Of a stretch of DNA of 42,453 nt, positions 11,523-28,758 are shown in pieces; within the stretch, counting starts at the first letter, position 1, and each line of letters starts with the position of its first letter. A model generated the notes under the pieces. That model saw nothing but the letters and a program-made list of their open reading frames with translations. It was not told where the DNA came from and did no database searches. The stretch spans positions 1 through 42,453 of the forward strand of contig JARRJC010000002.1 of assembly GCA_037379885.1 (NCBI GenBank). The letters run 5' to 3'. The position numbers and the translations under genes are program-made. This DNA is from Limibacillus sp. Its GTDB lineage: Bacteria > Pseudomonadota > Alphaproteobacteria > Kiloniellales > CECT-8803.

Positions 11523-12134
11523 TTAGAAGTCGATGCCCTGCTTGGCCTTGATGCCCTGCTCGAAGGGGTGCCGGACCTGGCCCATCTCCGTGACGAGATC
11601 GGCGGCCTCCATGATCTCCGGTTTGGCGTCGCGCCCGGTCAGGATGACGGAGGTCCGGGGATGGCGGGCTTTCAGGCCCTCCAGCACCTCCGCCGCCTCC
11701 AACTGGTCGTAGCGGAGCGCGATGTTGATCTCGTCCAGAACCACCAGGTCGTAGTCGCCGGACTCCAGATAGGCGCGCGACTGCGCCCAGGCGGCCTTGG
11801 CGGCGGCGATATCACGCTGACGGTCCTGGGTGTCCCAGGTGAAACCCTCCCCCATGGAGTGCCAGTCGACCAGCCCCTCGAAGCGCTTGAAGAACTCCCG
11901 CTCGCCGGTCTTCCAGGTTCCCTTGATGTACTGCACCACCGCGACCGAATGGCCCCAGCCGAGCGCGCGGATCACCGTGCCGAAGGCCGAGGTCGACTTG
12001 CCCTTGCCGTTGCCGCTGTAGACCAGCAGCAGGCCGCGCCCGGCCTGTTCCATCGACTTCAGCCTACTGCGGTGTTCGGCCTGCACGGCGCGCATCTTCT
12101 CGCGGTGCCGGGCGTCCTTGTCCTGATCGCTCAT
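11523..12134 (-). CDS. cobO: Cob(I)yrinic acid a,c-diamide adenosyltransferase (CobO/BtuR type)
   Basis: A 203-aa CobO/BtuR/CobA-type ATP:corrinoid adenosyltransferase, which attaches the 5'-deoxyadenosyl ligand of ATP to the cobalt of cob(I)alamin or its precursors. The P-loop is YSGNGKGKSTSAFG at about residues 39-52. The family blocks VVQYIKGTWKTGERE, GEGFTWDTQD, YDLVVLDEINIALRYD and VILTGRDAKPEI are all present. The charged N-terminal helix (SDQDKDARHREKMRAVQAEH) is usual for the longer family form. It lies upstream of the riboswitch, so the riboswitch would not control it unless it shares readthrough into the btuB operon. It is divergent from the amidinohydrolase gene, with 87 bp between them. 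Confidence 0.95.
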   Translation of the reverse strand: MSDQDKDARHREKMRAVQAEHRSRLKSMEQAGRGLLLVYSGNGKGKSTSAFGTVIRALGWGHSVAVVQYIKGTWKTGEREFFKRFEGLVDWHSMGEGFTWDTQDRQRDIAAAKAAWAQSRAYLESGDYDLVVLDEINIALRYDQLEAAEVLEGLKARHPRTSVILTGRDAKPEIMEAADLVTEMGQVRHPFEQGIKAKQGIDF

Positions 12135-12221: not shown

Positions 12222-13097
12222 ATGATCACCGGCGCCCAATCCCCCTGGAAAGTCGACTCGGAGACCGGCAGGCTGCGCGACATCCTGCTCTGCCGCCCGG
12301 ACCACTACAGCTGGCAGCCGACCAACGCCGTCGCGCTCAAGACCCTGGCCGAGGGTTCCAAGGGCTTCGACATCGAGGGCGTGAAGGCGCAGTACGAGGG
12401 CATGGTCACAGCGCTTCGGGAGAACGGCGTCACCTGTCATTTCCTGGAGCCTGAGGCCCACCTGCCCTATCAGGTCTACACGCGCGATTCGAGCCAGGTG
12501 ACGCCCTGGGGCCCGGTGGTGACCCAGCTCTACAGGCCCCAGCGGCGCGGCGAATACGCGGCCATCATCGGCTTCTACAACAAGACGGGCGGGCCCTGGG
12601 CCTATTCCACCACCGGCACGCTGGAGGGCGGCGACATCCACATCATCCGCCCGGGCCTGATGCTGATCGGCCATAGCGGCGAGCGCACCGACGAGGCCGG
12701 AGCCAGGCAGTTCGCCGGCTGGTTCGAGGAGCGCGGCTGGGAAGTGCGCCTGCAAGCCTTCGCCGAGCACTTCCTGCACCTGGACCTGCTGTTCTGCATG
12801 GCGGCCGACAACCTTGCGGTCGCCTGTCTGGAGGTACTGGACGATGACCTGGTCGATTGGCTGCGCGCCCACCAGATCCGCCTGATCCCGGTCAGCTACA
12901 AGGACGCCATGGCGCTGGCCTGCAACCTTCTGTCGCTGGGCGACGGCAAGGTCATCGCCGCCGCGCACGCCCGGGAGATGAACGCAGCGCTCAAGGCCGA
13001 AGGCGTGGAGGTGATCGAGCTACCGCTCGACCTGCTGACCCGGGGCGGCGGCGGGGCGCACTGCATGACCATGCCGCTGAGGCGCGATCCGCTATGA
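12222..13097 (+). CDS. Amidinotransferase/arginine deiminase superfamily hydrolase (DDAH-like)
   Basis: A 291-aa member of the guanidino-group modifying superfamily (five-bladed alpha/beta propeller). The expected catalytic set is visible: YTRDSS at about residues 86-91, EGGDIH at 135-140, the catalytic histidine in FLHLDLLF at about 186, and the nucleophilic cysteine in GGGGAHCMTMPL at about C281. Such enzymes hydrolyse a guanidino (or methylguanidino) group to a ureido group through a Cys-amidino intermediate, or transfer the amidino group. The length is close to DDAH-type enzymes and much shorter than the canonical ADI of the arc operon. The start has AAGGA about 9 nt upstream. The stop overlaps the next gene as ATGA, so it works with a carbamoylase-type hydrolase. 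The substrate is not established. Confidence 0.87.
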   Translation: MITGAQSPWKVDSETGRLRDILLCRPDHYSWQPTNAVALKTLAEGSKGFDIEGVKAQYEGMVTALRENGVTCHFLEPEAHLPYQVYTRDSSQVTPWGPVVTQLYRPQRRGEYAAIIGFYNKTGGPWAYSTTGTLEGGDIHIIRPGLMLIGHSGERTDEAGARQFAGWFEERGWEVRLQAFAEHFLHLDLLFCMAADNLAVACLEVLDDDLVDWLRAHQIRLIPVSYKDAMALACNLLSLGDGKVIAAAHAREMNAALKAEGVEVIELPLDLLTRGGGGAHCMTMPLRRDPL

Positions 13098-14332
13098 CCG
13101 AGAACCTCCTCAGCGTCGACGGCGCGCGTTTCTGGTCGACCATCGAAGCCTCCGCCGAGCTGGGCAAGGGGCCGCGCGGCGGCTTGCGGCGGCTGGCCCT
13201 GGACGAATCCGACGCGGCCATGAGGCGTCTTTTCGTCGAATGGTGCGAGGCCGCCGGGGCCGAGGTCACCGTCGACCGCCTGGGCAACATCAAGGCGCGG
13301 CGAGCGGGCCGCGAGGACCTGCCGCCGGTCATGGTGGGCAGCCACCTGGACACCCAGGCCTCCGGCGGGCGCTATGACGGCATCGTCGGCGTGCTGGCGG
13401 GCCTGGAGATTCTGCGCTGCCTCGAAGAGCGCGGCATCGTCACGCGCCGCCCCATCGAGGTTATGGACTGGACCAACGAGGAGGGCGCGCGCTTCCAGCC
13501 GCCGATGCTCTGCTCGGCGGGCTTCGCGGGCAAGGTCTCGCTGGACTGGGCGCTTTCGCGCAAGGACGACGCGGGCATCACCCTCGCAGAGGCGCTGAGC
13601 CGGGCCGGGTTCGACGGCGCGGCGCCGCCGGGCGGCTACGAGATCGATTCCTACTTCGAGCTGCACATCGAGCAGGGCCCGGAGTTGGAGGCCAAGGAGG
13701 TGCCGGTCGGACTCGTGGTCGGCTCCGATGCCTCCGTCGGGATGCGCCTGGAGGTGACCGGCGACACCGCCCACGCCGGACCGACGCCCATGGCCGAGCG
13801 CAGGGACGCGATCTTCGGCGCGGCGCTACTGGCCGTCGGCGTGAACCAGATGGGCCGCCGCTACGCGCCCGAGGGCAAGGCCACCGCGCCCCGGATCGAG
13901 GCCTGGCCCAACAAGCCCGGCATCATCTCCGAGCGCGCGACGCTCTATCTCGATTTCCGCCATCCGGAGAAGAGCGCGGTCGAGGCCATGACGCGCGAGA
14001 TCGAGGAACTGGTGGAGACCAGCGCGGCTGAGGCCCAGGTCCAGATCGAGATCGCCGAGCGCTGGTCCTTTGGCGGCGTCGACTTTTCCGAGGACCTGCT
14101 CGACCTGCTGCGCGCCACCGCCCGCGAACAGAAGATCCCGACGCTGGACCTGCTGAGTCAGGCCGGTCACGACGCCTATAATCTGGCGGCGATCTGCCCG
14201 ACGGCGCTGATCTTCTCTCCCTGCGAGGGCGGGCTCAGCCATAACGAGCGGGAGGCCACGCGGCTGGAGGACCAGTTGCCGGCGCTCAACCTGCTGCTGA
14301 ACGCCGTGCTGGCGCGGGCCGATCGGCCTTGA
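13094..14332 (+). CDS. M20-family Zn-dependent hydrolase (N-carbamoyl amino acid hydrolase / allantoate amidohydrolase type)
   Basis: A 412-aa amidase of the hydantoinase/carbamoylase M20 family, usually a dimeric di-zinc cytosolic enzyme. Metal ligands and catalytic residues are in GSHLDTQASGGRYDG (about residues 82-96, with H84 and D95), TNEEGARF (E129/E130) and ELHIEQGPELE (H191), plus a late histidine in SQAGHDAYN. The dimerisation-domain motif GDTAHAGPTPMAERRD is present. Family members hydrolyse the ureido bond of N-carbamoyl amino acids, beta-ureidopropionate, allantoate or ureidoglycine. Its ATG lies inside the stop region of the preceding amidinohydrolase gene (4-bp overlap), so the two products are probably made together. 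The exact substrate cannot be read from sequence. Confidence 0.9.
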   Translation: MTENLLSVDGARFWSTIEASAELGKGPRGGLRRLALDESDAAMRRLFVEWCEAAGAEVTVDRLGNIKARRAGREDLPPVMVGSHLDTQASGGRYDGIVGVLAGLEILRCLEERGIVTRRPIEVMDWTNEEGARFQPPMLCSAGFAGKVSLDWALSRKDDAGITLAEALSRAGFDGAAPPGGYEIDSYFELHIEQGPELEAKEVPVGLVVGSDASVGMRLEVTGDTAHAGPTPMAERRDAIFGAALLAVGVNQMGRRYAPEGKATAPRIEAWPNKPGIISERATLYLDFRHPEKSAVEAMTREIEELVETSAAEAQVQIEIAERWSFGGVDFSEDLLDLLRATAREQKIPTLDLLSQAGHDAYNLAAICPTALIFSPCEGGLSHNEREATRLEDQLPALNLLLNAVLARADRP

Positions 14333-14544: not shown

Positions 14545-15396
14545 ATGACCAGCCGCCGAACCGTCCTGCGCGGACTCTGCTTCCTGGCGCTGTCGCCTGC
14601 CTTGATCGCCTGGCGGTCGAACGAGGGGCTCTTCGCGCCCTCCGCCAAGCGGATAGACTTCTGGGCCGACACCGCCGCCAGTACCGGTACGCAGCCCGAT
14701 TTCTCGGCCTGGAGCGGCTGGCTGGCCGAACGCGTCCAGCTGGGCGGCGACGGCGTCGCGCGGCTCGACTACGGCGCGCAGGGCCCGGAAGACCGCGCAG
14801 CGCTGGAAGCCATCATCGCGGGCTGGGCCGCGCTCACGCCGCGCGGCTTTGAGAGGGACCTGCAGCAGGCCTACTGGCTCAATCTCTACAACGCCCTCAC
14901 CGTGAAGGTCGTTCTCGACCACTACCCGGTGGAATCGATCCAGGATATCGACATCTCGCCCGGCTTCTTCTCTTCGGGGCCCTGGGACGCGCCGCTTCTG
15001 GAGATCGAGGGCCGCAAGGTGACGCTGAACGAGATCGAGCACGGCATCCTGCGTCCGCTCTGGGGCGACCCCCGCATCCACTATGCCGTCAACTGCGCCT
15101 CGGTCGGCTGCCCGAACCTGCGGGCCGAGGCCTACTTGCCCGACCGACTGGAGGCGCAACTGGACGAACAGGCAACCGCCTACGTCAACGATCCGCGCGG
15201 CCTTTCCTTCACCGAGGAGGGGCCGGTCGTCTCACGCATCTACGATTGGTTTCTTGAAGACTTCGGCGGGAACGAGAGCGGCGTGATCGCCCATCTGGTG
15301 AAGTACACGACGCCGGAGCGGGCGGAGCGGCTGAAGGCCGCTGGCGAACTGGCGGGCACGGCTTACGACTGGGCACTGAACGACGCGGCGGACTGA
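14545..15396 (+). CDS. DUF547 domain protein with Tat-type signal
   Basis: A 283-aa protein of the DUF547 family, function unknown. The N-terminus MTSRRTVLRGLCFLALSPALI has a twin-arginine motif (SRRTVL) followed by a hydrophobic stretch, so export by Tat to the periplasm is likely. DUF547 hallmarks are YWLNLYNALTVKVVLDHYP in the first half and the HYAVNCASVGCPNLRAEAY block near residue 180, with two cysteines (CASVGC). GGAGGAGC lies 6 nt before the ATG. The 212-bp gap after the carbamoylase gene shows no recognisable element, so this gene is probably transcribed separately. A bidirectional terminator follows it. Confidence 0.85.
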   Translation: MTSRRTVLRGLCFLALSPALIAWRSNEGLFAPSAKRIDFWADTAASTGTQPDFSAWSGWLAERVQLGGDGVARLDYGAQGPEDRAALEAIIAGWAALTPRGFERDLQQAYWLNLYNALTVKVVLDHYPVESIQDIDISPGFFSSGPWDAPLLEIEGRKVTLNEIEHGILRPLWGDPRIHYAVNCASVGCPNLRAEAYLPDRLEAQLDEQATAYVNDPRGLSFTEEGPVVSRIYDWFLEDFGGNESGVIAHLVKYTTPERAERLKAAGELAGTAYDWALNDAAD

Positions 15397-17693: not shown

Positions 17694-18407
17694 TCAGAAG
17701 ACCAGATGGTCGCGGGCCAGTTCGGACCGGGCCTCCAGCTCCGCCATGCCTCCGCCATAGCGGATCGCGCCGCCCTCGATGATATAGGCGCGGTCGGCCA
17801 GCGCGCGGGCGAAGTGCAGGTTCTGCTCGGAGAGGAGGACGGTCAGACCTTCCTGCTTCAGGGCCGCTATAGTCTCGGCCAGTTGATCGACCAGGACCGG
17901 CGCGATCCCCTCGGAAGGCTCGTCCAGCAGCAGCAGGCGCGGGTTGCCCATCAGGGTGCGGGCGATGGTCAGCATCTGCTGCTCGCCGCCGCTCAGGTCG
18001 CCGCCCGCGTTGTTCCGACGCTCGTAGAGGTTCGGGAAGAGCTCGAACAAGCGCTCAGGCGTCCAGGGGTTCTGCCCGCCAGCCGCGGGGCGCCGCCCGA
18101 CTTCGAGGTTCTCGGCAACGCTCAGCCCCGCGAAGACGCGCCTGTCTTCCGGCACGTAGCCCAGACCCAGACGGCAGATCTCATAGGACGGCCGCCCGGC
18201 GATATCCCGGCCCTCCAGCAGGATCGACCCGCTCCGGGGCGTCACCAGGCCCATGACGGTCTTCAGGGTCGTGGTCTTGCCCGCCCCGTTGCGGCCCAGC
18301 AGCGCCACCACCTCTCCGCGCCCGACCTCCAGCGAGAGGTCGCGCAGGATATGCGCGCCGCCGTAGTAGCTGTTCACCCGCTCCAGGCTCAGGAAGGGAT
18401 CAGGCAT
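17694..18407 (-). CDS. livF: HAAT-family ABC transporter ATP-binding protein (LivF-like)
   Basis: A 237-aa ABC ATPase of the LivF type. Walker A is LLGRNGAGKTTTLKTVMGL at about residues 36-54, with LGLGYVPEDRRVFAGLSVAENL, the signature GDLSGGEQQMLTIARTL and Walker B LLLLDEPSEGIAP. Its ATG overlaps the preceding livG stop by 8 bp. It is the last gene of the binding-protein, fused permease, LivG, LivF series, and with LivG it forms the nucleotide-binding pair. The HAAT family carries branched-chain amino acids, but also urea, amides and other small compounds; the substrate here is unknown, and the upstream nucleoside phosphorylase gene gives only a weak hint. Confidence 0.93.
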   Translation of the reverse strand: MPDPFLSLERVNSYYGGAHILRDLSLEVGRGEVVALLGRNGAGKTTTLKTVMGLVTPRSGSILLEGRDIAGRPSYEICRLGLGYVPEDRRVFAGLSVAENLEVGRRPAAGGQNPWTPERLFELFPNLYERRNNAGGDLSGGEQQMLTIARTLMGNPRLLLLDEPSEGIAPVLVDQLAETIAALKQEGLTVLLSEQNLHFARALADRAYIIEGGAIRYGGGMAELEARSELARDHLVF

Positions 18408-19152
18408 GGCGCGCCCCTCCGCCCAGATAAACCTCGCGCACCTCGGGGTTCTGGCGGATCTCCCCCGCCGTTCCCTCGGCGATCAGCAGGCCTCGGTTCA
18501 GCACCAGGATGCGCCGGGCGTGGGCGAAAACCACGTCCATGTCGTGCTCGGTGAAAAGGATCGAGACGCCCTTCTCCTCGACCAGGGAGGCGGCCAGCTC
18601 CATCAGTGCGCCGCGCTCGGCCGGAGCCATGCCTGCCGTCGGCTCGTCCATCAGCAGCAGGCGCGGATCGTTGGCCAGCGCGATCGCCAGTTCCAGGCGC
18701 TTGAGGTCGCCGTAAGCCAGCTCGCGGGTTGCGCGCCCCGCCTGTTCGGCGAGGCCGACCCGCTCCAGCAGCGCCTCGGCCTCCTCCCGGTGGAGCCGCG
18801 CGGCGCGGGAGAAGAGGTTGAGGCCGCGCCCAGCCTTGGAGAGCAGGGCGACCTGGATGTTCTCCGCCAGGGTCATGGAGCCGAAGGTGGCGGTGATCTG
18901 GAAAGACCGCCCCACGCCCAGCCGCCAGATGCGGCGCGGCGGCAGGCCGGTGATCTCCTCTCCCGCCAGCGACACCGACCCGGAATCGGGCGCGAGCTGC
19001 CCGCCCAGGATGTTGAAGCAGGTCGATTTCCCCGCCCCGTTGGGGCCGATCATGGCGAGCAGTTCACCCTCGGCGAGCGTGAAGGTGACGGCGTCCAGCG
19101 CCTTGACCCCGCCAAAGGCCTTGGAGAGGTCGCGCACCGAGAGGAGCGTCAT
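18400..19152 (-). CDS. livG: HAAT-family ABC transporter ATP-binding protein (LivG-like)
   Basis: A 250-aa LivG-type ATPase. Walker A is MIGPNGAGKSTCFNILGG at about residues 34-51, followed by the LivG signature region GVGRSFQITATFGSMTLAEN, the helical part LAYGDLKRLELAIAL in place of the common SYGEQR form, and Walker B LLLMDEPTAGMAP. The switch histidine is in ILFTEHDMDVVF. The ATG at 19150-19152 has GGGAGGTG just upstream and overlaps the fused permease stop as ATGA. The reading frame stays open further upstream, but that part overlaps the permease and is not coding in this frame. It pairs with LivF under the fused LivHM permease. Confidence 0.93.
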   Translation of the reverse strand: MTLLSVRDLSKAFGGVKALDAVTFTLAEGELLAMIGPNGAGKSTCFNILGGQLAPDSGSVSLAGEEITGLPPRRIWRLGVGRSFQITATFGSMTLAENIQVALLSKAGRGLNLFSRAARLHREEAEALLERVGLAEQAGRATRELAYGDLKRLELAIALANDPRLLLMDEPTAGMAPAERGALMELAASLVEEKGVSILFTEHDMDVVFAHARRILVLNRGLLIAEGTAGEIRQNPEVREVYLGGGARHA

Positions 19153-21002
19153 GGCCGCACCTCCCGCCGTGGCGCAAGCAACGCCCAGAGTCGCCGCAAG
19201 CCGCCCGCGATGCCATCCGGCGCGGCCGTCACGATGACCAGGATCACCACCCCCAGGATCAGCCGCCAGTAGTCCAGGCGGGAAATCCAGTCCTCCAGCA
19301 GCACGAAGGCGCCCGCGCCCAGCAAGGGCCCGAAGAGCGAGTGGAGACCGCCCAGCAGCACCATCACCAAGCCGTCGACCGAACGCGGGATCGCCAGTTC
19401 GTCGGGAAAGATGCTGCCCTTGGAAAAGGCGAAGATCGCCCCGGCCATCCCGGCGAAGGTCCCCGCCGCGATGAAGGCGAACCACTGTTGGCGCTTCACG
19501 TCGATGCCTATGGCCCCGGCGCGCTGGGGTGAATCGCGCCCGGCGCGCAGCAGGTAGCCGAAGGGCGCGTGGGCGAAGCGCCAGAGCAGCGCGATGCCAC
19601 CCGCCGCGATCAGCAGCGTCAGCCAGTAGACCGCCTCGCGCGACGCAGCCCAGTCCGCGGGCCAAACCCCCAGAATGCCGTCGTCCCCGCCGGTCACCTC
19701 GCGCCACTGGAAGACCAGGGACCAGACGATCTGCGCGGCGGCCAGGGTCAGCATGGCGAGATAGACGCCCGTCAGCCGCACGCAGAACCAGCCGAAGAGC
19801 GCCGCCCCGGCGAGCGCCAGGAAGGGCCCGCCCAAAAGCGCCGGCACCATCGGCAGCGCCGCCTTGGTCGCCAGCAGCGCCGCGCCGTAGGCGCCGAGGC
19901 CGAAATAGGCGGCATGGCCGAAGGAGGTCATGCCGCCCAACCCCATCATGAACTGGAGGCTGGCGGCGAAGAGCGCGGCGATCATCACATCGGTCATCAG
20001 CACCAGCGTGAAGGACTCGGCGAACAGCGGCAGCGCGGCCAGCAACAGCAGTCCCGCCAGCAGCGCCGCCTTCAGGGCCGGGCCCGGCAGACTCAGGGGC
20101 CGCTCGGCCAGCAGCGTCTCATGACCGCCCCGTTCGGGCTTTCCGAGCAGGCCCCAGGGCCGGGCGATCAGGACGGCGGCCATGACCAGGAACGGCAGCA
20201 CCAGCGTGATCTCCGGCAGCCAGAGCACGCCGAAGGCGTTGAGCTCCCCGATCAGGACGGCGGCCAGATACGCGCCGGGCACCGAGCCCATGCCGCCGAT
20301 CACCACCACCACGAAGGCCTCGGCGATGACGTTCAGGTCCATCAAGAGGCTGACGGATTCGCGCGGAAGCTGGAGCGCGCCGCCCAGCCCGGCCAGGAAG
20401 GAGCCGACGAAAAAGACCGAGGTGAAGAGCCAGCGCTGGTTCACGCCCAGGGCGGCGAGCATCTCGCGGTCCTCGGTCGCGGCCCGCACCAGCACGCCCC
20501 AGCGGCTGCGGTAGAACAGCAGCCAGGTCGCGAACAGCACCAGCGGGCCGATGACGATCAGCGCCAGGTCGTACTCCGGGATCGCCTCGCCCAGGATGCG
20601 CACCGCGCCGTCCAGGCCGGGCGCGCGCGGGCCCACCAGATCCTCCGCGCCCCAGATCCAGAGGGCTACGTCCTGGATGATCAGCACCAGCGCGAAGGTG
20701 GCGACGAGCTGAAAGAGCTGCGGGGCCCGATAGAGACGGCTGAGAAGAGCGAATTCGATCAGGGCCCCGATCAGCCCGACGATCAGCGCCGCCAGCAGGA
20801 CCGCGCCCCAGAAGCCCAGGACGCCCAAGGGCAGCAGCCCCACGATGCTGTAGGCCAGATAGGCCCCCAGCATGAAGAAGGAGCCGTGGGCGAAGTTCAC
20901 GATCCGGGTGACGCCGAAGATGATCGACAGCCCGGCGGCCACCAGAAAGAGCGAGGAGGCCGAGGCGAGCCCGGTCAGGAGCTGCGCGATGAAAAAGCCC
21001 AT
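19149..21002 (-). CDS. Fused HAAT ABC transporter permease (LivH-LivM in one chain)
   Basis: A 617-aa membrane protein in which both HAAT permeases are joined. Residues about 1-290 are LivH-like, with LSIIFGVTRIVNFAHGSFFMLGAY, RAATEDREMLAALGVN and VVIGGMGSVPGAYLAAVLIG. Residues about 310-617 are LivM-like, with GGMTSFGHAAYFGLGAYGAA, GVYLAMLTLAAAQIVW, GRDSPQRAGAIGIDV and VMVLLGGLHSLFGPLLGA. The joint is a short soluble linker (RPWGLLGKPERGGHETLLAERPLS, around residues 285-310). Most relatives use two separate genes, livH and livM. The start has AAGGAAAG and it is preceded by the binding-protein gene with a 48-bp gap. No internal start or stop at the joint was seen, so it appears to be one protein. 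Confidence 0.93.
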   Translation of the reverse strand: MGFFIAQLLTGLASASSLFLVAAGLSIIFGVTRIVNFAHGSFFMLGAYLAYSIVGLLPLGVLGFWGAVLLAALIVGLIGALIEFALLSRLYRAPQLFQLVATFALVLIIQDVALWIWGAEDLVGPRAPGLDGAVRILGEAIPEYDLALIVIGPLVLFATWLLFYRSRWGVLVRAATEDREMLAALGVNQRWLFTSVFFVGSFLAGLGGALQLPRESVSLLMDLNVIAEAFVVVVIGGMGSVPGAYLAAVLIGELNAFGVLWLPEITLVLPFLVMAAVLIARPWGLLGKPERGGHETLLAERPLSLPGPALKAALLAGLLLLAALPLFAESFTLVLMTDVMIAALFAASLQFMMGLGGMTSFGHAAYFGLGAYGAALLATKAALPMVPALLGGPFLALAGAALFGWFCVRLTGVYLAMLTLAAAQIVWSLVFQWREVTGGDDGILGVWPADWAASREAVYWLTLLIAAGGIALLWRFAHAPFGYLLRAGRDSPQRAGAIGIDVKRQQWFAFIAAGTFAGMAGAIFAFSKGSIFPDELAIPRSVDGLVMVLLGGLHSLFGPLLGAGAFVLLEDWISRLDYWRLILGVVILVIVTAAPDGIAGGLRRLWALLAPRREVRP

Positions 21003-21050
21003 GGCGTCGCTTTCCTTCCCGGACGGCGCGCCCGCGCGGCCCTCGGGCGC

Positions 21051-22262
21051 TTACTCCGCGGGACGGAGCTTCATGGCCTCCTCGGGCGACGGCAGGTAGT
21101 CGCCGCCCGGGGCATAGCGCCAATCGATCATCTTGGGCTCGCCGTCGACGACCGCCGTGCGCCCGACCCAGGCGCCCATGGTGGACTGGTGGTCGGAGGC
21201 GCGGAAGGTGATCTCGCCGATCGGCGAGTCGAAGGTCAGGTCCTCCATGGCGGCCAGCAGGTCTTCGGTTTCCAGGGACTCGGCCTGCTCCAGAACGGCG
21301 GCGATGGCGAGCATGGAGTTGTAGCCCACGAGCGAGCCGTTCTTGGGCGTCTCGTCCCAGCGCTCCTCATAGGCCTCAACGAAGGCCTGATGCGCGGGAT
21401 CCTCGATGGCGTACCAGGGGTAGCCGGTGACGATCCAGCCCTCGGGCGCTTCCGCGCCCAGCGGGTCGAGATACTCCGGCTCGCCGGACAGGAGGCTCAC
21501 CACCTCGCGGCCCTCGAAAAGGCCGCGCAGGGAGCCCTCGCGCACGAACTTGGCGAGGTCGCCGCCGAAGGTGACGTTGTAGATCGCATCGGGGTCGGCG
21601 GCTTCCAGCGCACGGGCCGTCGCGCCTGCGTCGATCTTGAAGAGCGGCGGCCACTGCTCCTCCACGAAGACCACATCGGGACGCAGCTCGGTCAGCGCCT
21701 CCTTGAAGCGCGCCACGGCGTCGGTGCCGTAGGCGTAGTTCGGCGCGACCGTCGCCCAGCGCTTGGCCGGCAGCTTGGCCGCTGCCTCCGCCAGCATGGC
21801 GGCCTGCATGTGGGTGGAGGGCCGCAGGCGGTAGGTGTAGCGGTTGCCCTTGGACCAGACCAAGGCGTCGGAGAGCGGCTCGGTCGCGATGAAGAGCTCC
21901 TGGCGCTGCTTGGCGAAATCCGTCACCGCCAGCCCGACGTGGGAGAAGAAGGTGCCCCAGAGCAGCACCACCTCGTCGCGGGTCACCATCTCCTCGGCGA
22001 TGCGGATGGCGGTGCCGGGCTCGCCCGCGTCGTCGCGCGAAATGACCTCGATCTCGCTGCCCTTGACGCCGCCGGCGGCGTTGATCTCCTCCAGCGCCAG
22101 CTGCCAGCCCTTCTTGTAGGGCTCGGTGAAGGCGGGAAGGCGGGTGTAGCTGTTGATCTCCCCCACCTTGATGGTGTCGGCGCGCAGCTCAGAGGCCAGC
22201 AGCGAGGTAAAGAGGAGAGCCAGGGCGCAGACGGCGCCAAGCCCGGTGCGGAGAAGGATCAT
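21051..22262 (-). CDS. HAAT-family periplasmic substrate-binding protein
   Basis: A 403-aa type I periplasmic binding protein of the LivK/AmiC/UrtA kind. An N-terminal signal peptide (LRTGLGAVCALALLFTSLLA) leads into a mature protein beginning near DTIKVGEINSYTRLPAFTEPY. Core motifs include KGWQLALEEINAAGGVKGSEIEV and DDAGEPGTAIRIAEEMV, then NYAYGTDAVARFKEAL. It would feed the fused permease downstream. The ligand is not predictable by eye; branched-chain amino acids, amides and other compounds are possible. A 124-bp gap separates it from the upstream nucleoside phosphorylase gene and shows no obvious element. The ATG has GGGAG about 10 nt upstream. Confidence 0.9.
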   Translation of the reverse strand: MILLRTGLGAVCALALLFTSLLASELRADTIKVGEINSYTRLPAFTEPYKKGWQLALEEINAAGGVKGSEIEVISRDDAGEPGTAIRIAEEMVTRDEVVLLWGTFFSHVGLAVTDFAKQRQELFIATEPLSDALVWSKGNRYTYRLRPSTHMQAAMLAEAAAKLPAKRWATVAPNYAYGTDAVARFKEALTELRPDVVFVEEQWPPLFKIDAGATARALEAADPDAIYNVTFGGDLAKFVREGSLRGLFEGREVVSLLSGEPEYLDPLGAEAPEGWIVTGYPWYAIEDPAHQAFVEAYEERWDETPKNGSLVGYNSMLAIAAVLEQAESLETEDLLAAMEDLTFDSPIGEITFRASDHQSTMGAWVGRTAVVDGEPKMIDWRYAPGGDYLPSPEEAMKLRPAE

Positions 22263-22386: not shown

Positions 22387-23190
22387 TCACGCGCGGGGCA
22401 GCCTTGCGCAGAAAGCCTCCACCAGCGCCTCGAAATCGCGGGAAATCGCCGCCGCCTTGGTTTTGGTCTCGCTATGGCTTGGACCTTGCGGGGTCATGCC
22501 CGCGCCAAGGTTGGTGACCGCCGACAGGGCGGCCACGCGCAGCCCCAGGTGGCGGGCGATCAGGGTCTCCGGCACGGTCGACATGCCGACAAGGTCCGCG
22601 CCCAGGCGCCGCGCCATCTCGATCTCCGCCGGGGTCTCGAAAGATGGGCCGGAGAACCAGGCGTAGACCCCTTCGTGCAGCTCGATCCCGCAGGCCTTCG
22701 CCGCCTCGGCGAGACAGGCGCGCAAGGCAAAGTCATAGGCGCCGACCATGTTGACGAAGCGGCTGTCGCCGGACAGCCCGATCAGGGGATTGGCGCCCGC
22801 CAGATTGATGTGGTCGCGGATCGCGACCAGAGACCCGGGCCCGGCCTCCGGGCGCAGCGATCCGGCGGCGTTGGTCAGCAGGACGCTCTCGCAGCCCAGT
22901 GCCGCCAGGCATTCCAGGGGGGCGCGCATGGCGCTGGCATCGCCCGCCTCGTAGTAGTGCGCCCGGCCCGAAAGTAGGGCGACGCGGCGCCCGCCCAGCG
23001 CGCCCAGGACCAGTTCGCCCTCATGCGCGCTGACGCCCAGGCGCGGGAAGCCGGGCAGGTCGCGATAGTCGATGGACTGGGAAAGTTCGAGGCGCGCGGC
23101 CAGCCCGCCGAGGCCCGAGCCGAGCAGAATGCCGAGCGCCACGGGCTCTGCGCTCAAGCGGGCCTTGATGACATCGGCAGCCTCGCTCAT
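22387..23190 (-). CDS. Purine nucleoside phosphorylase (trimeric, PNP/MTAP family)
   Basis: A 267-aa PNP of the low-molecular-mass trimeric class, cytosolic, converting a purine nucleoside and phosphate to a free base and ribose-1-phosphate. Phosphate-binding GSGLGGLA is at about residues 24-31, the SGRAHYYEAGD block at 74-84, TNAAGSLRPEAGPG at about 109-122, and the purine-site GPSFETPAEI and GADLVGMSTVPE segments follow. The length is typical (about 270). Its ATG follows 17 bp after the prfC stop, with AAGGA upstream. It is immediately upstream of the HAAT transporter, which could hint at nucleoside-related uptake, although HAAT binding proteins rarely carry nucleosides. Confidence 0.93.
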   Translation of the reverse strand: MSEAADVIKARLSAEPVALGILLGSGLGGLAARLELSQSIDYRDLPGFPRLGVSAHEGELVLGALGGRRVALLSGRAHYYEAGDASAMRAPLECLAALGCESVLLTNAAGSLRPEAGPGSLVAIRDHINLAGANPLIGLSGDSRFVNMVGAYDFALRACLAEAAKACGIELHEGVYAWFSGPSFETPAEIEMARRLGADLVGMSTVPETLIARHLGLRVAALSAVTNLGAGMTPQGPSHSETKTKAAAISRDFEALVEAFCARLPRA

Positions 23191-24891: not shown

Positions 24892-25134
24892 TCAGCCCCC
24901 CGCCATGCGGGAGAAGACGAAGACTTCGCTGTCCGGTTCGATGGGCTGGAACCAGGAGTCGCGGTAGATGCGCCCGTCGATGGAGACGGCGACGCCCCGG
25001 TCCAGGGCCGGTTTCAACTCCGGCGCCGCCTCGGCGAGGGCGTTGACCAGCTCGCGGACGTTCTTCGCTTCAAGCTCGAAGTCCGCCTTGCCCGCCATCG
25101 ACTTCAGACCGCCCTGGAGCGTGACAGCGACCAT
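24892..25134 (-). CDS. Small ubiquitin-like MoaD/ThiS family protein
   Basis: An 80-aa beta-grasp protein ending in Gly-Gly (FSRMAGG), the hallmark of MoaD/ThiS sulfur carriers activated by adenylation at that end. Typical parts are VRELVNALAEAAPELKPAL, VAVSIDGRIYRD and PDSEVFVFSRMAGG. Its ATG overlaps the stop of the molybdenum hydroxylase large subunit by one base (TGATG), so it is translationally coupled to that enzyme. A role in molybdopterin sulfuration or cofactor supply for the operon's own enzyme is an attractive inference, but it could also be a general MoaD paralog. It has no partner adenylase next to it in the window. Confidence 0.8.
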   Translation of the reverse strand: MVAVTLQGGLKSMAGKADFELEAKNVRELVNALAEAAPELKPALDRGVAVSIDGRIYRDSWFQPIEPDSEVFVFSRMAGG

Positions 25135-27401
25135 CAGACCAGGCCCTTGTCCTCCAGCGCCTTCAGGACGCGCGGCGGCGACATGGGCAGCTCGGTCAGG
25201 CGCACGCCGACCGCGGCCGAGACCGCGTTGGCGACGGCGGCCAGCGGCGGCACGATGGAGGTCTCCCCCACCCCGCGCACGCCGTAGGGGTGGCCGGGGT
25301 TCGGCACCTCCACGATCACCGTGTCGATCATCGGCAGGTCGGAGGCGACCGGGATCCGGTAGTCGAGGAAACCCGCGTTCTCCATCTTGCCCTTGTCGTT
25401 GTACATGTAGCACTCGTTCAGGACCCAGCCGATGCCCTGCACCGCGCCGCCCTGGAACTGGCCCTCGACATAGGCCGGGTGGATCGCCTTGCCCGCGTCC
25501 TGCACGACCGTGTAGCCGTTGACCCAGACGCGGCCGGTATCGGGATCGACCTCGGCATCCACGATGTGGGTGGCGAAGGACGGGCCCGCCCCATCGGCGG
25601 AAACCTCGTAGTGCCCGGCGATGGGACCGCCGGTGTTGCCCGCCACCGCCGCGATGTCGGCGATGGAAAGCGGCTCGAACTCGCCCGCGTTGGGACCGGC
25701 GGGCCGCGCCTCGCCGTCGACCCACTCCACGGCCTCGACCGGGATGCCCCACATGGCCGCCGCCCGCTCGCAGAGCTTCTTCTTCGCCTCGCGCGCCGCC
25801 GTGATGGTGGCGAGGCCGGAGGCGAAGGTGACGCGGCTGCCGTCGGTCACGTCGTTGTAGCCGAGCGAGGAGGTGTCGGCGACGATGGCCCGTACGTTGT
25901 CGTAGGGAATGCCCAGCTCCTCAGCCGCCATCATGCACATGGACGCGCGGCTGCCGCCGATGTCGGGGGTGCCGACCGAGAGCGTGCAGGTGCCGTCGAT
26001 GTTGACGTTGAGGCTGGTGCAGGTCTGGCCGCCGAAGTTGAACCAGAAGCCCGAGGCCACGCCCCGCCCCTGGTTGGGGCCGAGCTTCTTGGCGTAGTGC
26101 GGGTGGGCCTTGGCGGCCTCCAGCGTCTCGACCAGACCGATGGGGCCGAAGGTCGGGCCGTAGGAGGACTTGGTGCCTTCCTTGGCCGCGTTCTTCAGGC
26201 GCAGGTCGATGGGATCGATGCCCAGCTTGCCCGCCAGCTCGGAGACCACGGACTCCACGGCGAAGGCCGCCATGGGCGCGCCGGGCGCGCGGTAGGCCGC
26301 CTGCTTGGGCCGGTTGGTGACCACGTCCCAGCCGACGCACTTGACGTTCTCCAGGTCGTAACAGGCGAAGGCCGCCATGGCCCCCATCTCGACCGGGGAG
26401 CCGGGGAAGGCGCCGCCCTGATACTTCAGTTCGGCGAAACCGGCGGTGATGCTGCCATCCTTCTTCGCGCCGATCTTGACGTGGATCGCGGTGGAAGAGG
26501 TCGGGCCGGAGGCGAGGAAGACCTCCTCGCGGGTCATGACCAGCTTGACCGGCTTGCCGGCCTTGCGGGACAGCGCGAGCGCCGTCGGCTCCAGGAAGAC
26601 CGTGGTCTTGCCGCCGAAGCCGCCGCCGATCTCAGAGGCCGTGACGCGCAGGCGCGAGACGTCGATGCCAAGCAGCGCCGCGCAGGTGTCGCGCACCATG
26701 AAGTGACCCTGGGTGCAGCCCCAAAGCTCGCCCGAGCCGTCCGCCGACATGTTGGCCAGACAGGCGTGGGGCTCGATGTAGCCCTGGTGCGTCGCCTCGG
26801 TCTTGAAGGAGTGCTCGACGATCACGTCGGCCTCGGCAAAGCCCTTCTCGACGTCGCCGTGGCCGACCTCGATCCGCTGGCAGACGTTGGAGGGGCTCGA
26901 CGGCTTGGGCTCCACGCCCTCGGTGAAGATGTGGTCGTGAAGCACCGGCGCGCCGGGCTCCATGGCCTTCTCCACGTCGGTGACGTGCGGCAGCACCTCG
27001 TAGTCCACCTCGATCAGCTTCAGCGCCTTCTTGGCGATGGAGTTGGAGACCGCGGCGACGGCGGCGACGGCGTGGCCCTCGTAGAGCGCCTTCTCGCCGG
27101 CCATGACGTTCTCGAGCACGTTGGCGGTCTCGCCCTCCTCGACGTCCGTGGCGAAGTCGGCGCGGGTGACGACCGCCTTCACGCCGGGCAGCGCCTCGGC
27201 CTTGGAGGTGTCGATGGAGCGGATCCGGGCATGGGCGTGCGGGCTGCGCAGCACCTTGCCGAACAGCATGCCGGGCGCGAAGGCGTCGGCGCCGAAGCGC
27301 GCGCGGCCCGTGACCTTGTCGATGCCGTCGGGGCGCAGCGGGCGCTCGCCGACGACCTTGAACTGACGGGGCGAAAAGCCGTGTTTGCTATCGAGAGGCA
27401 T
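25134..27401 (-). CDS. Molybdenum hydroxylase large subunit (xanthine dehydrogenase family)
   Basis: A 755-aa molybdopterin-binding subunit of the xanthine dehydrogenase/CO dehydrogenase family. It has the N-terminal DGIDKVTGRARFGADAF block, the cofactor-binding SEIGGGFGGK and AYRAPGAPMAAFAVES segments, the late VVQDAGKAIHPAYVEGQ block and the catalytic glutamate in GVRGVGETSIVPPLAAV. It lacks the CSFR motif of true aerobic CO dehydrogenase. With the separate FeS and FAD subunits it forms a CoxMSL-like heterotrimer. The ATG has AAAGGG and follows the FeS gene by 3 bp. The substrate is unknown: purines, nicotinate-like N-heterocycles, aldehydes or aromatic CoA thioesters are all within the family's range. 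A neighbouring PNP makes a purine plausible but unproven. Confidence 0.92.
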   Translation of the reverse strand: MPLDSKHGFSPRQFKVVGERPLRPDGIDKVTGRARFGADAFAPGMLFGKVLRSPHAHARIRSIDTSKAEALPGVKAVVTRADFATDVEEGETANVLENVMAGEKALYEGHAVAAVAAVSNSIAKKALKLIEVDYEVLPHVTDVEKAMEPGAPVLHDHIFTEGVEPKPSSPSNVCQRIEVGHGDVEKGFAEADVIVEHSFKTEATHQGYIEPHACLANMSADGSGELWGCTQGHFMVRDTCAALLGIDVSRLRVTASEIGGGFGGKTTVFLEPTALALSRKAGKPVKLVMTREEVFLASGPTSSTAIHVKIGAKKDGSITAGFAELKYQGGAFPGSPVEMGAMAAFACYDLENVKCVGWDVVTNRPKQAAYRAPGAPMAAFAVESVVSELAGKLGIDPIDLRLKNAAKEGTKSSYGPTFGPIGLVETLEAAKAHPHYAKKLGPNQGRGVASGFWFNFGGQTCTSLNVNIDGTCTLSVGTPDIGGSRASMCMMAAEELGIPYDNVRAIVADTSSLGYNDVTDGSRVTFASGLATITAAREAKKKLCERAAAMWGIPVEAVEWVDGEARPAGPNAGEFEPLSIADIAAVAGNTGGPIAGHYEVSADGAGPSFATHIVDAEVDPDTGRVWVNGYTVVQDAGKAIHPAYVEGQFQGGAVQGIGWVLNECYMYNDKGKMENAGFLDYRIPVASDLPMIDTVIVEVPNPGHPYGVRGVGETSIVPPLAAVANAVSAAVGVRLTELPMSPPRVLKALEDKGLV

Positions 27402-27404
27402 GGG

Positions 27405-27881
27405 TCAGCCCTTTCTGATTTCCTGTGCGGCGTCCAGGACGGCGCGCACGATCTTGTCGTATCCGGTGCAGCGGCAGAGGTTGCCGGCCAGCCAGTAGCG
27501 GACCTCCGTCTCGTCGGGGTCGGGGTTGCGCTCAAGCAGCGACTTGGCGGCGACCACGATGCCCGGCGTGCAGATGCCGCACTGAAGCGCGGCGTGCTCC
27601 AGCAGCTTGGACTGAAGCACATGCAGCCGCTCGCCGTCCGAGACCCCCTCGATGGTGCCGATCTCGCGGCCCTGGGCTTCGGCGCCCAGCATGAGGCAGG
27701 AGCAGACCAGACGGCCATCGACCGTCACGGAGCAGGCGCCGCAGTCGCCGGTGCCGCAGCCTTCCTTGGAGCCGGTCATGCCGAGCCGGTCGCGCAGCAC
27801 GTCCAGCAGGGTCTCCTCCGGCTCGCAGAGGAATTCCACGGCGTCGCCGTTGATGGTGGTGGATACAGGGATTCGCTTCAT
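27405..27881 (-). CDS. Molybdenum hydroxylase [2Fe-2S] subunit
   Basis: A 158-aa small subunit carrying two [2Fe-2S] clusters. The N-terminal plant-type cluster is in GSKEGCGTGDCGACSVTVDG with a later Cys in VCSCLML. The C-terminal helical cluster is in QCGICTPGIV and GNLCRCTGYDKI. This matches the CoxS/XdhC-type small subunit (about 155-165 aa). I choose the ATG giving MKRIPVSTT, which has AAGGA 10 nt upstream and follows the FAD-subunit stop by 13 bp. A start 13 codons earlier exists but would overlap the FAD gene and lacks a binding site. It passes electrons from the molybdenum site to FAD. Confidence 0.93.
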   Translation of the reverse strand: MKRIPVSTTINGDAVEFLCEPEETLLDVLRDRLGMTGSKEGCGTGDCGACSVTVDGRLVCSCLMLGAEAQGREIGTIEGVSDGERLHVLQSKLLEHAALQCGICTPGIVVAAKSLLERNPDPDETEVRYWLAGNLCRCTGYDKIVRAVLDAAQEIRKG

Positions 27882-27894
27882 TGCTGTCGTTCCT

Positions 27895-28758
27895 TCAGGC
27901 ATTGGCTTTGGCCCGGTCATAGGCGATGAGGGCGGCGCGGCGCGCCAGGACGCCCGCGACCTTGGTGCGGTACTCGACCGTGCCGCGCTTGTCGTCGATC
28001 GGCTTGCAGGCAGCCGAAGCGGCGGCCGCCAGCTTTTCCTGGGCGGCCTCCTCCAGCTTGCTGCCGATCAGCGCCTGGGCGGCCTCCTCCACCAGCAGGA
28101 CCGTGGGCGCGACCGCGCCGAGCGATACGCGCGCGGCGGAAACGCTTCCGTCGGACGCCAGTTCCAGGCTGACGGCGGCGCCGACCACGGCGATGTCCAT
28201 CTCCGTGCGCGGAATGAAACGCAGGTAGGCGTCCGACGCCCCCTTGGGCCGGGCGGGCAGGAAGATGGAGTGCACCAGCTCGCCCTTCTTCAGATTGGTC
28301 TTGCCGGGACCGGCGGCAACCTCCAGCACCGGGATGTCGCGGGTTCCTTCCGGCCCGATCACGCGGGCCAGCGCCCCGGCGGCGACCATCGCGGGCACGC
28401 TGTCGGCGGCCGGCGAGGCGTTGCAGAGGTTGCCGGAGACGGTGGCGCGGCCCTGGACCTGGGTCGATCCGATCAGGCCCGCCGCCTCGACCACGCCGGG
28501 CCAGAGCGCGGTCAGGCCCTCGTGCTCGTTCATCTCGGCGCCGCTGACAGCCGCGCCGATGCGGAAACCGCCCTCCTCCGCGACGATATCGCGCAGGCCG
28601 TCGATGCGCTTGATGTCGATGACCAGGTCGGGCTCCAGCCGGCCAGAGCGGAGCTGCACCAGAAGGTCGGTGCCGCCCGCCAGGACCTTGGCGATCCCGC
28701 TTTCAGCCGCCAGCAGGGCGACTGCGTCTTCCATGGAAGTCGGCGCTTCGTAACGCAT
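27895..28758 (-). CDS. Molybdenum hydroxylase FAD-binding subunit
   Basis: A 287-aa FAD-binding medium subunit (CoxM type). The FAD-binding motif AGGTDLLVQLRSG is at about residues 27-39, and TVSGNLCNASPAADS, matching the family's second FAD motif, is near 106-120. The C-terminal CO-dehydrogenase-like region includes ARVSLGAVAPTVLL. The electron path is Mo, two [2Fe-2S] clusters, FAD. It is the first gene of the four-gene operon FAD, FeS, large subunit, MoaD-like. A GAGGAG lies 13 nt before the ATG. The 186 bp upstream (28759-28944) should hold the promoter, but I cannot pick a convincing one. Confidence 0.93.
   Translation of the reverse strand: MRYEAPTSMEDAVALLAAESGIAKVLAGGTDLLVQLRSGRLEPDLVIDIKRIDGLRDIVAEEGGFRIGAAVSGAEMNEHEGLTALWPGVVEAAGLIGSTQVQGRATVSGNLCNASPAADSVPAMVAAGALARVIGPEGTRDIPVLEVAAGPGKTNLKKGELVHSIFLPARPKGASDAYLRFIPRTEMDIAVVGAAVSLELASDGSVSAARVSLGAVAPTVLLVEEAAQALIGSKLEEAAQEKLAAAASAACKPIDDKRGTVEYRTKVAGVLARRAALIAYDRAKANA

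Follow-up and report, generated by a model that had tools for sequence, protein, structure and literature searches.

An overlapping gene pair of a deiminase-like protein and an M20 hydrolase in Limibacillus, and a possible two-step route for guanidino acids

A known two-step route of this kind is that of AguA and AguB, agmatine deiminase and N-carbamoylputrescine amidase, where neighbouring genes take a guanidino compound to a ureido compound and then to an amine. Both steps are carried out by one protein in arginine dihydrolase (ArgZ/AgrE) and in N-succinylarginine dihydrolase (AstB), and Asn71 of ArgZ/AgrE is, going in part by PDB titles, a catalytic residue of the dihydrolases. Arginine deiminases (ADIs) and bacterial DDAHs belong to the same superfamily, and use two arginines for the substrate carboxyl and one Asp for the amine (PMC11659421). 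Next, the arginine transaminase pathway (AruH/AruI) passes through 4-guanidinobutyrate, on which guanidinobutyrase (GbuA), a ureohydrolase, yields urea in one step. As for the hydrolysis of ureido acids, RrCbAA (PDB 8c46) is an N-carbamoyl-beta-alanine amidohydrolase whose Arg291 forms a salt bridge to the substrate carboxylate (PMC10952681).

The locus described here lies in a window of 42,453 nucleotides, the whole stretch of DNA that was analysed, from a Limibacillus sp. contig. Gene 1 (12222..13097, + strand, 291 aa) encodes a guanidino-group-modifying hydrolase of the ADI/DDAH superfamily. Gene 2 (13094..14332, + strand, 412 aa) encodes an M20 hydantoinase/carbamoylase-family metallohydrolase of a PNxxG subclade. 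A previous sequence-only reading had described an overlapping pair, and this is borne out at the same coordinates: both ORFs are uninterrupted, and start and stop share an ATGA of 4 nt (13094..13097, + strand). The same reading called the pair fused, too loose a word for overlapping genes that encode two separate polypeptides. The third-position GC, 0.90 in gene 1 and 0.92 in gene 2, is in line with real high-GC genes. By eye, Shine-Dalgarno-like sequences precede gene 1 (AGGA) and gene 2 (GAGG). The pair forms one unit, since the upstream cobO/btuR gene (11523-12134, - strand) is divergent and the gene downstream (14545-15396, + strand) encodes a DUF547 protein. There is no transporter and no regulator inside the unit, and promoter and terminator scans gave no signal above chance. 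The overlap might also keep the two products at equal dosage.

In terms of family, gene 1 exceeds the curated Pfam cut-offs for PF19420 (94.9 bits, cut-off 23, E 7e-27) and PF02274 (89.9 bits, cut-off 22.8, E 2.3e-25), which places it in the guanidino-group-modifying superfamily (ADI/DDAH/AstB cluster), as proposed earlier. Among proteins of solved structure, AgrE, ArgZ and ADI are closest in sequence. A low-confidence model (mean pLDDT 57.9) matches NnhA, ADI, DDAH and AGAT at Z 13-15 (VIA), and in this low-confidence comparison the fold of AGAT, an amidinotransferase, ties with the other superfamily folds. According to the model, gene 1 would have the alpha/beta-propeller fold, the top VIA rows being superfamily members.

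The motifs first read as YTRD, EGGD, HLD and a terminal Cys are all present on the + strand. They contain the guanidinium-binding Asp89 of YTRD (12486..12488), the catalytic Glu135 of LEGGD (12624..12626), the catalytic His and Asp of His186-Leu-Asp188 (12777..12785) and the nucleophile Cys281, of 291 residues (13062..13064). D89, E135, H186, D188 and C281, together with R108, R155 and N235, never vary across 58 family members. Arg108 (12543..12545, + strand) occupies the position of AgrE R90 and, in the alignment to PaADI, of R185; Arg155 (12684..12686, + strand) occupies that of AgrE R139 and PaADI R243. In those enzymes these arginines bind the carboxylate of the substrate. With the dihydrolases gene 1 has in common the fold, the Cys/His/Glu set and the carboxylate arginines (Arg90 and Arg139), but it has Asp89, as in deiminases, in place of Asn71.

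A second difference lies in the alpha-amine site. Where arginine-using relatives such as ADI and DDAH carry the amine-binding Asp or Asn (D65 in the AgrE alignment), gene 1 has Tyr83 (12468..12470, + strand). Across the family this position is Tyr in 36 proteins, Met in 7, Arg in 6, Lys in 4, Phe in 3 and Asp in 2, so that Asp is kept only by two sphingomonad plasmid proteins and the rest are aromatic, Met, Arg or Lys. The two retained arginines, Tyr83 at the amine position and Asp89 at that of Asn71 together predict, at the level of sequence, a deiminase acting on guanidino acids without an alpha-amino group. The pocket therefore argues for a guanidino acid, as had been suggested before, and arginine, the first candidate then named, is disfavoured because Tyr83 replaces the alpha-amine-binding Asp/Asn. 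The same pocket offers a sequence rule, two arginines kept and the amine Asp lost, that would sort amino-acid from non-amino-acid guanidino hydrolases.

Gene 2 belongs to TIGR01879 (347.3 bits, cut-off 204, E 1.1e-103, NCBIfam), as do RrCbAA and the L-carbamoylases. Its best PDB relatives are 4wjb, 5tp4, 5thw and 8c46, and RrCbAA is the best-scoring characterised relative by name. An alignment with RrCbAA 8c46 and 31 relatives places metal ligands at H84 (13343..13345, + strand), D95, E130, H191 and H383, in agreement with the earlier assignment to an M20 carbamoylase family with every ligand retained. Arg289 (13958..13960, + strand) is conserved in 23/23 sequences and corresponds to RrCbAA Arg291, an equivalence set by aligning four published numbered residues with a +6 offset. 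Single-sequence structure prediction of gene 2 reached a pLDDT of only 35.8 and gave no usable model.

The part of the pocket that the dimerisation domain contributes sets gene 2 apart from RrCbAA and the L-carbamoylases. The Ser-Arg-Asn motif shared by the L-carbamoylases and beta-ureidopropionases that were compared is replaced by Lys274-Pro-Gly276 (13913..13921, + strand), with Gly at the last position in 16/16 members of the gene 2 subclade and Asn in 7/7 of the S-R-N set. This subclade, with members 47-60% identical, has PN-x-x-G where S-R-N stands in RrCbAA and the other PDB relatives and in the carbamoylases linked to a deiminase. Further positions specific to it are G216, Q356 and Y362. 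We found no characterised member of the subclade.

Read together, the two genes suggest a unit that degrades a guanidino acid, most likely 4-guanidinobutyrate, with gene 1 as deiminase and gene 2 as decarbamoylase, and we put the chance of this overall reading at about even. The analysis shows the structure of the genes, their families, the residues of catalysis and pocket, the repeated linkage to M20 hydrolases and the neighbouring genes; the two reactions, the coupling between them in the own genome and the identity of the substrate are inferred. Cys281 would attack the guanidinium carbon, held by D89, E135, H186 and D188; ammonia would leave, and hydrolysis would then yield an omega-ureido acid. 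The substrate carboxylate would be held by R108 and R155, and with Tyr83 at the amine position the substrate probably lacks an alpha-amino group. Gene 2, as a dinuclear-metal M20 amidohydrolase that binds the carboxylate through R289, would convert the ureido acid into an amino acid, CO2 and NH3. Overall, 4-guanidinobutyrate derived from arginine would go through 4-ureidobutyrate to GABA, with release of ammonia and CO2 where GbuA gives urea. The unit would resemble AguA/AguB in logic, but the families differ, as AguB is of the nitrilase family and gene 2 is an M20 metallohydrolase with no nitrilase-family match in Pfam or NCBIfam at E 0.001, and the predicted substrate carries a carboxylate.

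We then looked at the pairing in other genomes, scoring 59 gene-1 loci, including the window, for an M20 hydrolase encoded on the gene-1 strand no more than 1.5 kb away. The first adjacency test, on loci from near relatives, gave no other pair, and linkage emerged once plasmid and wider proteobacterial loci were added. It is found at 17 of the 58 other loci, six with a carbamoylase (seven of 59 with the window) and 11 with an abutting AbgB-like enzyme of a different M20 family. The carbamoylase pair of an Alisedimentitalea (Rhodobacterales/roseobacter) plasmid, L144, has the identical ATGA overlap of 4 nt. In two proteobacterial genomes (L158 and L160) the gaps are 10 and 72 nt and the gene orders opposite. 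Three rhizobial plasmids (L136-L138) carry both genes in one operon with two ABC permeases between them. On the gene-1 tree, a quick tree with several weak forks, a minimum of 5 changes is required to explain carbamoylase linkage and of 7 to explain M20 linkage. The chance that 50 loci would yield three independent cases of an immediate neighbour on the same strand is about 8e-7, a rough value uncorrected for relatedness and search bias.

On the other hand, no M20 carbamoylase lies close to any of the four nearest gene-1 orthologues by path (66-73% identity, and 63%). At the closest (66-73%; G004, G031, G015) its place is taken by Pot-type ABC genes with a hydrolase of the nitrilase family, and G015 also has a ureohydrolase 64 nt upstream. 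In G004 and G031 the orthologue of gene 2 lies at another place in the genome. The pairing of gene 1 with a second-step hydrolase is thus recurrent and the exact pair of the window lineage-specific. Conserved adjacency, which the sequence-only reading proposed to look for, holds in part, with a carbamoylase at six of the 58 other loci but not in the closest orthologues. The two-step deiminase/M20 logic of that reading makes chemical sense, recurs elsewhere and is likely; the carbamoylases of the other pairs, however, are of the SRN type and of a different M20 subclade from gene 2. This difference, the varied gene contexts of the gene-2 subclade and the absence of a transporter from the unit weigh against the proposed route.

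Some loci show further arrangements. A Komagataeibacter plasmid (L135:10074-10459) has a fragmented M20 carbamoylase beside a gene-1 homologue, a decayed pair. AbgB-like M20 genes, an alternative second-step enzyme, lie by gene-1 homologues of rhizobia and a roseobacter (L149-L155, L161, L162, L140-L142, L105), usually overlapping or within about 110 nt. In L035:14506-15282, L036 and L037 a nitrilase-family hydrolase stands by the Pot-type ABC genes of the closest gene-1 orthologues and may replace gene 2.

The subclade difference raises another explanation, that gene 1 is a guanidino-acid deiminase and gene 2 acts on another N-acyl or N-carbamoyl compound, the overlap reflecting co-transcription only. 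This fits the change from SRN to KPG with its constant Gly276, and the fact that in other genomes genes of the subclade are either isolated or next to those for ornithine cyclodeaminase, EutB, amidases or a ureohydrolase. It also fits G004 and G031, whose genomes hold both orthologues unlinked. Against it, overlapping genes usually take part in one process, and gene 2 keeps Arg289 and all metal ligands. Furthermore, of 384 genomes of the class, the three with the best gene-2 orthologues all carry gene 1 as well, although the two genes co-occur only weakly overall (Fisher p 0.09, leaving out the own genome). We regard this explanation as rather unlikely. In Sulfitobacter and Agrobacterium (L178, L180), genes of the subclade abut or overlap a gene of the ornithine cyclodeaminase family; the same loci hold RraA and genes for TRAP or ABC transporters, in what would be an uncharacterised pathway.

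The neighbours of gene-1 relatives give clues to the substrate of the proposed deiminase and decarbamoylase unit. A 2-ketoarginine (5-guanidino-2-oxopentanoate) decarboxylase lies near the relative L105 (NF005712, 640.9, cut-off 500), with homologues at L106, L108 and L109, and the L141 plasmid carries one by annotation. Ureohydrolases of the agmatinase family are near L037, L106, L113, L114 and L144. The neighbours of L158 include an ALDH, a class-I aminotransferase and a GABA transaminase (TIGR00700, 568.9, cut-off 506.65). These genes point to a route through arginine transaminase, 4-guanidinobutyrate and GABA. The second step has a precedent in the family, as RrCbAA hydrolyses N-carbamoyl-GABA (PMC10952681). 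At the rhizobial loci L136-L138 the neighbours are a class III aminotransferase and a beta-keto acid cleavage enzyme, joined in one strain by acetoacetate-CoA ligase; this hints at a beta-amino acid there, so the substrate may vary. In the own genome no 2-ketoarginine decarboxylase and no GABA transaminase scored over cut-off, a point against the proposed source of 4-guanidinobutyrate and outlet through GABA. 4-Guanidinobutyrate is our best guess for gene 1, a tentative one held at less than even odds, followed by 3-guanidinopropionate.

The Pot-type ABC genes, which are spermidine/putrescine-like, and the nitrilase-family hydrolase by the closest gene-1 orthologues could instead indicate a polyamine route, as could two agmatinase-family genes in the own genome. 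Gene 1 would then be an agmatine deiminase of ADI/DDAH type, and gene 2 would release putrescine as an N-carbamoylputrescine amidohydrolase. Neither agmatine nor N-carbamoylputrescine carries a carboxylate, whereas the carboxylate-binding arginines are invariant in gene 1 and Arg289 is kept in gene 2. Gene 1 has no agmatine-deiminase family match in Pfam or NCBIfam at E 0.001, and known agmatine deiminases form a separate GME cluster (PMC11659421). This route is improbable.

A further alternative takes gene 1 as an ordinary arginine deiminase, dimethylargininase or arginine dihydrolase, with gene 2 turning citrulline into ornithine or being unrelated. It follows the annotations of gene-1 relatives on plasmids, "arginine deiminase family" or "DDAH family". 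Gene 1 shares the catalytic residues and the deiminase-type Asp with arginine deiminase and bacterial DDAH. Its scores, however, are below every NCBIfam equivalog cut-off, and by far: 77.7 bits for arginine deiminase ArcA (TIGR01078, cut-off 489.1), 75.8, 49.6 and 52 for DDAH (NF045659, NF045658 and NF045660, cut-offs 300, 450 and 340) and 65.8 for arginine dihydrolase (NF052232, cut-off 450). With Tyr83 and Asp89 also against it, we give this alternative little credence.

Lastly, that gene 2 is an allantoate amidohydrolase or a beta-ureidopropionase of pyrimidine breakdown, with gene 1 incidental, agrees with a score just over cut-off for the "allantoate amidohydrolase" subfamily NF006769 (456.6, cut-off 452) and with the beta-ureidopropionase 8c46 among the PDB relatives, but is very unlikely, as the subfamily name is no evidence of function when deiminase-linked carbamoylases score higher (629.8 and 613.1) and gene 2 stays under the AllC equivalog TIGR03176 (189.5, cut-off 597.75), and as the own genome has no D-hydantoinase/dihydropyrimidinase over cut-off.

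Returning to the guanidino-acid reading, the enzyme families are ordinary and their combination is unusual and recurrent, a variant of the logic, familiar from agmatine, of deimination followed by decarbamoylation. Literature searches gave no paper on a guanidinobutyrate deiminase or on the pair of gene 1 and gene 2. Gene 1 could found an undescribed class of guanidino-alkanoate (4-guanidinobutyrate) deiminases that occurs across Alphaproteobacteria and has been joined repeatedly with one or another hydrolase for the second step, be it an M20 carbamoylase, an AbgB-like M20 enzyme or perhaps a member of the nitrilase family, a proposal to which we give a little under even probability. If true, arginine-derived guanidino acids would be turned into omega-amino acids with ammonia released instead of urea, a nitrogen-salvage route parallel to guanidinobutyrase with interchangeable second steps. 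Proteins now named "arginine deiminase family" or "DDAH family" would be misnamed in many alpha- and some other proteobacteria.

Elsewhere in the window, molybdenum hydroxylase genes occupy 25134-28758 on the - strand, with a large subunit (under every NCBIfam equivalog cut-off), a 2Fe-2S subunit and, by eye, a probable FAD subunit. Finally, a 617-aa fused permease (19149-21002, - strand) joins a UrtB/LivH-type part (6-288) to a UrtC/LivM-type part (400-600). It sits in a Liv/Urt-type ABC cluster (17694-22262) that adjoins a purine nucleoside phosphorylase gene (22387-23190).
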